This document shows positions 19,580 through 21,652 of a stretch of DNA of 39,937 bases, piece by piece. The stretch is from Bryobacterales bacterium (GTDB lineage Bacteria; Acidobacteriota; Terriglobia; Bryobacterales; Bryobacteraceae), in NCBI GenBank assembly GCA_027324255.1, contig DAHVTI010000067.1, forward strand, positions 1-39,937, in the 5' to 3' direction. The notes under the pieces are model-generated. The model made no database searches and was not told the DNA's origin. It saw only the letters and a program-made list of their open reading frames with translations. Numbering within the stretch: position 1 is the stretch's first letter; each line of letters opens with the position of its first letter. The position numbers and the translations under genes are program-made.

Positions 19580-20860
19580 TCAGCGGACGACGGCGGGCCG
19601 CGGAGGAGGGAGGGCGAGCGTCACGGCGAGGTTGAGGGCGAAGAGCGAGACGGCGATGAGTTCGGTGACGGCGGAGACGGGCAGGATGCGCCACGCCACG
19701 GCGACGTTGGCTTCGTAGGCCGGGATCTCGGCGCCGACGCGGAGGGCGCAGCCGAGGTTGAGCAGGACGAGGGAGGCGGTCATGAGGCGGGGACTGTAGA
19801 GGACGCGCATGCCGCAAAAGGCGGGCAGAACGCGCTGGCCGATGGCGAAGACCATGGTGGCGAGGAAGCCGACGGTGAGGGCGTGGCGGGAGGCGCCCCA
19901 GAGGCCGCCGTGCGTGTCGGCGGCGGCGGCCCAGACGCTGAGGCCCGCGGCCAGTAGCAGCCAGGCGTAGGCGCCGCGGGCGAAGTGCGGGAACAGCGGG
20001 CTGACGGCGAGGATCTTGGGCGGACGCGCGGAGGGCTCGAAGACGCGCAGGGCGGCGGCGGCCAGCAGGCTGGCTGCCAGCAGCACGAGAGCGGCGGGCA
20101 GGACCCGGCCGGCGAGCCCGAGGACGAGGGCCGCGAACCAGGCGGCGAGGGCGGACAGCAGCAGCGCGGGGCGCGGCGCGGGCAGGCCGGCAAACACCGG
20201 CAGCCAGCGGGCGTTGAAGCCCCACACGGCGGCGACGGGGAAGCCCCAGGCGGCGAGGATCAGGAACCGCTGGTCGAGAGAGTGAGGGAGGGCCGGGCCG
20301 GCGCTGGTCCAGGCCAGCCAGACGGCGGCGGCGGCGTTAAACAGAAGGGCCAGCAGGAAGGCGGAGGTGGAGGCCACGACAGCTTTCATCCAGGGCTCGA
20401 ATGAGGTGGGCCCGGCGCCGGACTTTTTGTGGCGGCTGACCGTGGCGAAGAAGAGGACGAAGGCGGCGAGTTCAAGCGCGGCGGAGAGGGGCAACAGCAG
20501 CCGCCATTGCCAGAGGCTGACATTGGCGGTCCAACGCAGGGCCGCGCCGGCGGTCCACAGGGCGAAGCTCACCCAGCCTCGCGCGGCCGAATGAGGCGTC
20601 TGGCCGCCCATTTTGGAGAGCGAATAGTAGCCGATGCCGAGGATGAAAGTGCCGATCCAGCCGAAGATCTGGGCGTGGCCGTGGGCCTGCATCCAGGCGG
20701 CCGGCAACGTCTGGAGCGAGTGCCGGCCGCTGATGGAGACGAGGTTCCAGACGCCGAGGAACGTCCCGGGCAGGAGCAGGAAGAGCAGGCCGGTGGCGAC
20801 GTAGGCCGTCACCAGCCTCTGGAGGGCGACTTCGATGCGGGCGGACGCGGCCTGCGTCAT
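19580..20860 (-). CDS. NnrS-like polytopic membrane protein
   Basis: A 426-residue protein with about twelve hydrophobic segments. The stretch MQAHGHAQIFGWIGTFILGIGYY, and later GLWGASRHALTVGFLATMVFAIGQRVLP, carry His residues in membrane segments in the way NnrS and haem-copper-related proteins do. NnrS is a haem- and copper-containing membrane protein tied to nitric-oxide stress. The link is strengthened by context: it starts 19 bases after a ric gene, in the same direction, so the two form a nitrosative-stress unit. ATG 20860 begins MTQAASARIEVAL; the longer frame upstream runs over the ric gene and is a shadow. Membership is by motif and context only, hence moderate confidence. Confidence 0.68.
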   Translation of the reverse strand: MTQAASARIEVALQRLVTAYVATGLLFLLLPGTFLGVWNLVSISGRHSLQTLPAAWMQAHGHAQIFGWIGTFILGIGYYSLSKMGGQTPHSAARGWVSFALWTAGAALRWTANVSLWQWRLLLPLSAALELAAFVLFFATVSRHKKSGAGPTSFEPWMKAVVASTSAFLLALLFNAAAAVWLAWTSAGPALPHSLDQRFLILAAWGFPVAAVWGFNARWLPVFAGLPAPRPALLLSALAAWFAALVLGLAGRVLPAALVLLAASLLAAAALRVFEPSARPPKILAVSPLFPHFARGAYAWLLLAAGLSVWAAAADTHGGLWGASRHALTVGFLATMVFAIGQRVLPAFCGMRVLYSPRLMTASLVLLNLGCALRVGAEIPAYEANVAVAWRILPVSAVTELIAVSLFALNLAVTLALPPPRPAVVR

Positions 20861-20879
20861 GGTGGCCTCCCGTGCCGCG

Positions 20880-21584
20880 TTAGCGCTGCTCAAAGGCGAT
20901 GGCACGGGGGAAGAGGATGTTGTTCTCGAGGTGGATGTGGAGGTCCGCCTCGAGCGCCTGCAAGCCGGAGTAGAGGGCACGGACGGTGGCGCAGGCGTAT
21001 TCGGGGAGCGTGAAGTCCGTGGTGAGTGAGCGGATTTCGGCCAGCGCGCCGCCGGCCTCGGTGTGCTCGCGCTCCATGACGGCGATGGGGTTGGCGATGG
21101 AACCGAACGGGACGGGCGGGGCGGGCCGGCCGGCGAGCTCGGCGGCGCCGTACTGCTCGATAAAGGGGAACAGAATGATCTCCTCCTTGTGGAGATGGAG
21201 TTCGAGCTCGGAGCGCAGGCCGCCGTAGACGACTACGAGGCGATCCCACATTTCCTGATCCTTGGGGCCGTGAACGGAGACCACTTTGTCCAGGCGTTTG
21301 GCGAGGGCGGGCATTTCGAGCTTGAGGTACTCGTGATGGGTGGCGATGATGTGGCGGGCGAGGTCGCGCATGGGCGCGGCCTGCCAGTCGGTTTCGCCGG
21401 CGGGGGCAGGGGTGCTGTTCTCGATTTCGGCGAGGACCGAGTCGGGGTTCAGGTTCTTTGCGCGGCAGGCCTCGTCGAAGGGCTGCTTGCCGCCGCAGCA
21501 GTAGTCGAGCCCGTGGCGCTCGAGGTGGCGGATGGCGTGGGCCGAAGCGGCGGCGAGTTCGGCGAGGGTCATGGTGGTGGTCAT
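20880..21584 (-). CDS. ric: Iron-sulfur cluster repair di-iron protein RIC (YtfE/ScdA/NorA)
   Basis: A 234-residue cytosolic di-iron protein that repairs Fe-S clusters damaged by nitric oxide or peroxide. The N-terminal ScdA domain shows RHGLDYCCGGKQPFDEAC with the conserved CC and a third Cys. The hemerythrin-like domain follows, with histidines and glutamates at about H84, H130/H132 with KEE, H174 (EREHTEAG) and H216/H218 (LHIHLENNILFPRA), the expected ligands of the oxo-bridged iron pair. Length is normal (about 220-240). GAGAGG precedes the ATG. It is the first gene of a two-gene unit with the NnrS-like gene. A GTGA-N6-TCAC palindrome lies about 60 bases upstream and may be a Crp/Fnr-family operator. 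Confidence 0.93.
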   Translation of the reverse strand: MTTTMTLAELAAASAHAIRHLERHGLDYCCGGKQPFDEACRAKNLNPDSVLAEIENSTPAPAGETDWQAAPMRDLARHIIATHHEYLKLEMPALAKRLDKVVSVHGPKDQEMWDRLVVVYGGLRSELELHLHKEEIILFPFIEQYGAAELAGRPAPPVPFGSIANPIAVMEREHTEAGGALAEIRSLTTDFTLPEYACATVRALYSGLQALEADLHIHLENNILFPRAIAFEQR

Positions 21585-21638
21585 GGGTGGTGCCTCTCTT
21601 TCTGATCCGATGGTAGGGCGGAAGGGGGGAGAGGATCA

Positions 21639-21652
21639 GTGATTGAAGTCAC
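21639..21652. promoter_or_regulatory. Candidate Crp/Fnr-family operator upstream of ric
   Basis: Perfect inverted repeat GTGA-TTGAAG-TCAC, centred 61.5 bases before the ric ATG. The half-sites and 6-base spacer are those of Crp-class sites (TGTGA-N6-TCACA), with only the outermost base differing on each side. In many bacteria ric and nnrS are controlled by NO-sensing members of this family (Dnr, NnrR) or by NsrR. No regulator gene is in the window. Confidence 0.5.

Follow-up and report, generated by a model that had tools for sequence, protein, structure and literature searches.

The ric-nnrS unit and its palindrome

We analysed a stretch of 39,937 nucleotides from a Bryobacterales bacterium, here called the window, with a focus on two neighbouring genes on its minus strand. 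The first is a ric gene of the ytfE/scdA type (20880..21584), whose 234-aa product combines a ScdA_N domain carrying a CC motif with a hemerythrin di-iron domain. The first-pass annotation had called it a RIC di-iron protein, and the TIGR03652 RIC profile bears this out with 223.2 bits against a cut-off of 204.7; both Pfam domains, ScdA_N and Hemerythrin, also score above their cut-offs. After a spacer of 19 bases (20861-20879), as had been annotated, follows a gene for an NnrS-like membrane protein of 426 aa (19580..20860), which matches the PF05940 NnrS profile with 34.5 bits (cut-off 28) and none of the NCBIfam models. Homologues of this protein adjoin ric in relatives. It had also been noted correctly that no NO reductase adjoins the pair, and the one qNOR found in the genome is on another contig (C339).

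Upstream of ric lies a candidate operator, GTGACTTCAATCAC (21639..21652, minus strand), which reads GTGATTGAAGTCAC on the plus strand and belongs to a family with the consensus GTGAC-N4-GTCAC. It ends 54 bases 5' of the ric ATG, close to the earlier estimate of about 60 bases for a GTGA-N6-TCAC palindrome. A -35-like stretch, TGATCC (21633..21638, minus strand), abuts the operator and contains the G of a conserved [TA]G[CA]. A -10 element, TACCAT (21610..21615, minus strand), is predicted at a fixed distance from the operator, and transcription of ric would start near 21603.

By count, the palindrome in the window is at chance level, with one GTGA-N6-TCAC observed against 0.54 expected and at least one in 47 of 100 shuffles of the window. 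In the 6.17 Mb genome the same pattern has 98 forward matches compared to 34 for a reversed control, and the narrower GTGAY-N4-GTCAC has 14 compared to 8. The narrower pattern occurs at 19 places, of which 13 are inside coding frames, five before gene starts and one on contig C456. The 13 inside coding frames, as called by our script, were put aside as chance. Some of the five before gene starts also run into the end of an adjacent frame, or into a frame whose start our script had called too far upstream. We judge the ric palindrome to be above chance because its position before ric is conserved in relatives.

Sites and promoter geometry are conserved in relatives

The RIC protein was searched against 101 genomes, the organism's own and 100 relatives, and matched in 49, from which the best 30 loci (own included) were used. 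The other sets likewise hold the 30 best loci of a search rather than every matching genome (44 genomes for qNOR, 30 for nnrS, 59 for a polyferredoxin, all 101 for a radical-SAM (rSAM) protein at E 0.001, and 33 of 61 for a c-type haem protein). In 21 of these best 30 loci the exact GTGA-N6-TCAC is present no more than 300 bases ahead of ric; in each, at least one copy lies 51-110 bases before the start, and the four middle bases vary. A one-base variant is found 65-96 bases before the start in seven of the other nine. The remaining loci, L017 and L018, have no site upstream of ric, even when scored with a weight matrix.

Before nnrS itself the exact site is found, within 300 bases, in five of the best 30 loci. 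In 14 of the 30 nnrS loci ric is present in the same stretch, and a site precedes ric in all 14 (own included), ten of them exact and four with a one-base difference. The first-pass annotation had named, as speaking against its reading, close relatives with the operon but no palindrome; none was seen among these 14 loci. The order ric then nnrS on the same strand is found in ten of these 14 loci, again including our own (seven exact and three variant sites), and here the sites begin 66-95 bases before the ric start. For the remaining four, nnrS is upstream on the same strand in two and divergent in two. The motif can be refined to GTGAC-N4-GTCAC. Of the symmetrised sites, pre-chosen to have C or T at position 5, 92% have C. 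With the weight matrix the exact training sites score at least 15 bits, and in the stretches that follow the starts of ric, polyferredoxin and rSAM only 7 of 205,167 positions reach 11 bits.

Two side observations were made on the ric loci. In genomes G001, G003 and G019 we find RIC-like proteins (L023 1471-2199, L025 1471-2202 and, with ric turned forward, L028 1477-2193) whose ScdA_N lacks the CC motif and has YGIDFH in the place of YGLDYCCGG. The operator still precedes these CC-less genes. In the L023 protein both RIC domains score above their cut-offs in a scan, and the L025 and L028 proteins were read by eye. In L007 (around 2275, ric turned forward) and L008 (around 2264) a second GTGAC-N4-GTCAC stands after ric and before an MFS transporter gene. 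The L008 transporter has an MFS_1 domain according to a scan, and these transporters might have a NarK-like role.

For a description of the promoters 72 operators from five gene sets were aligned, one per locus and the nearest to the start. This set contains only GTGAY-N4-RTCAC sites between -130 and -20, and homologous promoters within it are not independent. Right after the operator the G of [TA]G[CA] is present in 69 of the 72, and the mirrored place upstream has a C in 26. The motif NAnnnT is found in all 72 promoters at an offset of 35-38 from the operator start (47 at 36, 24 at 37 and one each at 35 and 38, one promoter being counted twice), and in 71 of the 72 at offset 36 or 37. In eight equally wide control windows it occurs in 1-15 of 72. 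The full TAnnnT occurs 24 times at offset 36 and ten times at offset 37. NAnnnT is a weak motif for which the window was chosen after viewing the column table; it nevertheless stands out strongly from the controls, in all five families. If NAnnnT is read as the -10 box, transcription would begin some 48 bases from the start of the operator, and the operator would be centred near -41.5 (or -42.5). This is the geometry of class II activators, as for CRP and FNR. The five promoters of the own genome fit this geometry by eye, the one of the hemerythrin gene without the G after the operator.

Targets and candidate regulator are linked

The first-pass annotation had proposed to look for the same palindrome before NO reductase, hemerythrin or other ric/nnrS genes of the genome. 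It is indeed found before a hemerythrin gene and further genes. GTGAY-N4-GTCAC precedes the start of a hemerythrin gene (contig C3, 6515-7042, 175 aa), and sites are also found before a TIGR04053 radical-SAM gene (C3, 8081-6987; 458.8 bits, cut-off 395), a gene on C427 for a NapH/NosR-like polyferredoxin of 348 aa that scores below the NapH and NosR cut-offs (the site begins 49 bases before the start), and a gene on C512 for a c-type haem protein of 412 aa with one CxxCH and, by eye, a signal-like start. The earlier description of a compact nitric-oxide response unit is thus supported, but ric-nnrS is only one branch of a wider regulon.

The polyferredoxin is the most constant candidate target, with an exact site within 300 bases upstream in 28 of the best 30 loci (own included), and it is not a known NO gene. 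For the TIGR04053 rSAM protein the exact site is found in 14 of the best 30 loci, and the loci without it hold mostly remoter homologues, L193, L194 and L200 (68-71%) excepted. The haem protein has a site in seven of its best 30 loci, mostly the nearest homologues. As to the NO reductase, the expectation holds for relatives, where an exact site precedes qNOR in six of the best 30 loci and GTGAC-N4-GTCAT in eight more, and not for the own genome, whose qNOR has only a degraded site, GTGACAACAGTCCT. The degraded site is at the same place as the GTGAC-N4-GTCAT of its congeners G004, G007 and G008, the other five qNOR loci of the genus being outside the sample, and it has AAAAAT at offset 36.

The first-pass annotation had also proposed to look for a Dnr/NnrR-like regulator, and a candidate regulator of the Crp/Fnr type was found on C3 (G000 contig C3, 8195-8875, minus strand, 226 aa). 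It has a cNMP_binding domain (74.8 bits) and an HTH_Crp_2 domain (67.6 bits), both above cut-off, and can therefore be placed in the Crp/Fnr family. PF00027 has three matches in the genome (C3, C115 and C16), and for PF13545 the C3 protein alone is above cut-off, the next match having 21.9 bits (cut-off 27). The cNMP-domain proteins on C115 and C16, which have no PF13545 match, were rejected as alternative regulators. By eye, the C115 protein (L050 4220-4696, 158 aa) lies beside histidine-kinase-like and ferredoxin-type genes and the C16 protein (L051, around 1118-1372) among hydrogenase-like genes.

The downstream neighbour of the C3 regulator gene is the rSAM gene with its site, followed by the convergent hemerythrin gene with its own. 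Regulator and ric are found together in 43 of the 101 genomes, ric without the regulator in four and the regulator without ric in 12, at cut-offs of E 1e-30 or better for ric (which drops G038 and G054), 1e-35 for the regulator and 1e-100 for the polyferredoxin; these counts ignore shared ancestry and pool regulator paralogues. Within the 43 genomes with both, the regulator homologue is close to ric in 12 (G016, G030, G039, G043, G044, G053, G060, G084, G092, G093, G096 and G099). A scan of named genomes, limited to proteins that contain one of two short peptides, yielded 39 regulator loci, 37 with acidobacterial names, one named Arcobacter and one Gemmatimonadetes (37% identity). The closest named relatives in this peptide-limited scan are Bryobacterales, one of them labelled Paludibaculum and from a reactor. 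A site of at least 13 bits is present in 24 of the 39 named loci, mostly before rSAM, polyferredoxin, qNOR, nnrS, ric or hemerythrin genes, and absent in 15. The Arcobacter-titled locus (L221, DYJN01000021.1) carries an acidobacterial regulator and rSAM protein at 71-77% identity, and is possibly mislabelled or from a mixed bin.

All 29 aligned regulators share the recognition helix LGTVREV[VI]SRN; they come from 30 loci, of which L067 was dropped when the script found no fitting frame. According to the available excerpts of PMC1274295, R180 in the recognition helix goes with G3 of the site and E181 with A6. R187 and E188 of our regulator fit this rule, as the GTGAC motif requires. The only cysteines of the protein are C48 and C117, and its sequence holds no FNR-type cysteine cluster. 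CRP has Arg-Ser where the regulator has P94-A95, in a conserved Y-P-A stretch. The AlphaFold model (pLDDT 84, pTM 0.58) has a Crp/Fnr fold; CRP-type proteins of actinobacteria and Thermus head its Foldseek matches, and DNR comes 17th. Autoregulation was considered and rejected, as a site within 300 bases upstream of the regulator is found in one of 30 loci and is probably due to chance.

The surroundings of the regulator gene show some further features. Small ferredoxin and cupin genes are divergent from it in the own genome (L032 2257-2809, G000 contig C3). A cupin gene also adjoins the regulator in several relatives, as a rule with no site, and in L222 with a weak site in between. In L249 (2921-4867, minus strand) an NnrS-domain protein with a fused C-terminal DUF1858 is encoded divergently from a regulator homologue.

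There are exceptions to the linkage. No close regulator was found in G001, G003, G008, G023 and G046, though exact sites are kept, before the polyferredoxin in the first four and before ric and rSAM in G046. The completeness of these genomes is 78% (G001), 84% (G003), 88% (G008), 99% (G023) and 87% (G046). The rSAM search of the 101 genomes also gave no close rSAM in G001, G003, G008 and G023, and the gaps in these four could possibly be a shared loss or assembly gaps. In the 99% complete G023, the best Crp-like protein has a different recognition helix.

Proposed regulation and its place among known systems

Taken from the sequences, it is likely that ric-nnrS belongs to a Crp/Fnr-type and probably NO-responsive regulon. 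The two genes would form one transcription unit under the single Crp/Fnr-family protein encoded on C3. This protein would respond to NO or a similar nitrogen oxide by binding GTGAC-N4-GTCAC, with the operator centre some 41.5 bases upstream of the start of transcription, and would assist RNA polymerase as a class II activator. Other units with the site, and presumably under the same control, would be hemerythrin and the TIGR04053 rSAM gene beside the regulator, the polyferredoxin and the c-type haem protein, and in relatives qNOR would belong to the regulon as well. Going by their protein families, qNOR would remove NO, RIC would repair iron-sulphur clusters and NnrS would keep metal-nitrosyl damage in check. 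We infer NO as the signal from the gene content.

It is unlikely that the signal is instead a lack of oxygen or another redox cue, with NO genes included since NO arises in anoxia. The NapH-like polyferredoxin and the radical-SAM protein are, by family, electron-transfer or oxygen-sensitive enzymes. The DnrT protein of Thermus, discussed below, works within an anoxia circuit according to the accessible part of PMC5748679. Against such a signal, the regulator has just two cysteines and no FNR-type cluster, and the recurring members of known role (ric, nnrS and qNOR) are typical of NO regulons in the excerpts of PMC1274295.

Rather improbable in our view is that the same protein acts at the same operator as a repressor, covering the -35 region and leaving on NO, like NsrR for ric. 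The operator overlaps the -35-like [TA]G[CA], with its G in 69 of 72 promoters, at about 17 bases from the -10 element. With a recognisable -35-like stretch and this spacing the promoter might work without an activator. NsrR is described as repressing ric in several bacteria in the accessible part of PMC9268430. On the other hand, the first base of the -35 stretch is fixed by the operator and the rest of it is weak. DnrT, at 34% identity, is described as activating its own operon and those of nar and nrc, though also as repressing two further operons. For a class II activator, -41.5 is moreover the standard operator centre. A chance match with no regulatory role, which would agree with the count in the window and with the 13 of 19 intragenic places of the narrower pattern, is ruled out by a core conserved before several unrelated gene families while the middle bases vary, and by the fixed spacing to the -10-like element.

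The proposed NO-responsive regulon shares with the DNR/NnrR regulons of Proteobacteria a Crp/Fnr-family regulator together with ric, nnrS and nor-type genes. Its operator is different, since the DNR site is of the TTGAT type and GTGAC-N4-GTCAC is neither of this type nor ctTTGcgnnnncgCAAag. The latter is the NnrR consensus in the excerpts of PMC1274295, which also describe the control of ric (dnrN), nnrS and nor genes by a Crp/Fnr-family regulator in these regulons. In a PDB sequence search with the regulator, CRP-type proteins of actinobacteria reach about 85 bits and DNR 63. FNR proper has an N-terminal cysteine cluster for a 4Fe-4S centre and a TTGAT-N4-ATCAA site, and both the regulator, with C48 and C117 only, and the operator differ from this. 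With HcpR of Desulfovibrio and relatives the regulon has in common the GTGA-N6-TCAC core and a nitrogen-oxide-type gene content. For HcpR the same excerpts give the consensus wTGTGAnnnnnnTCACAw and dnrN or norB as members in some lineages (PMC1274295). In our sites the outer T/A are not fixed, and C5 and G10 are strongly preferred, among sites pre-chosen with Y and R there.

The best plasmid-borne match of the regulator is a Thermus thermophilus protein (34% identity over 212 aa, helix LGTVPEAVSRNL), whose record is named only Crp/Fnr. Its gene adjoins nar genes, with feoAB and a gene for a hemerythrin also close by, and the dnrT primers printed in the accessible part of PMC5748679 fit both of its ends. 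We take it for DnrT because of these neighbours and the fit of the primers. The same part of PMC5748679 describes DnrT as a DNR-subgroup activator of its own, nar and nrc operons and a repressor of two others. Unlike our regulator, DnrT has P and not R at the G-reading position of the helix, and no GTGA-N6-TCAC was found in 14.6 kb around its gene. A second plasmid match, from Azospirillum, has no adjoining nitrogen-oxide genes.

NsrR, which belongs to the Rrf2 family, is like the present regulon in ric and nnrS content and unlike it in family, in repressing ric and in operator. In enterobacteria and Shewanella, ric (dnrN), hmp, hcp and nnrS are co-regulated by NsrR in response to nitrogen oxides through the site gATGyAT-N5-ATrCATc (excerpts of PMC1274295). 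Altogether the regulon appears to work like the DNR, NnrR and HcpR regulons with overlapping content. As the operator differs from that of DNR/NnrR and partly matches that of HcpR, and the nearest plasmid-borne relative is DnrT, we regard it as a variant and assign it to neither DNR nor HcpR.

In titles and abstract openings, with subscription journals thinly covered, we found no published description of this regulon, and the term TIGR04053 was not found in the same literature. The accessible parts of PMC1274295, PMC8510549, PMC5900883, PMC9268430 and PMC5748679 do not describe the regulon either, and a word search of those of PMC8510549 and PMC1274295 gave no mention of Acidobacteria.

Tentatively, the regulators might form a NO-responsive Crp/Fnr clade of the Acidobacteriota's own, with the NapH/NosR-like polyferredoxin as top target together with the TIGR04053 rSAM and c-type haem proteins. 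Together they might provide non-denitrifiers with an electron-transfer or haem-modifying route of NO detoxification that is as yet undescribed. Homologues of norBC or norZ (qNOR) occur in subdivision 1 and 3 Acidobacteria that lack dissimilatory nitrate and nitrite reductases, and detoxification has been suggested for norZ (accessible part of PMC5900883). The regulon makes this suggestion testable, as qNOR in relatives has the same operator as ric, nnrS and the other members. One likely regulator, a 14-base operator and a promoter geometry can now be named, and the polyferredoxin, the TIGR04053 rSAM protein and the haem protein become candidates for NO defence in abundant bacteria that are hard to culture.
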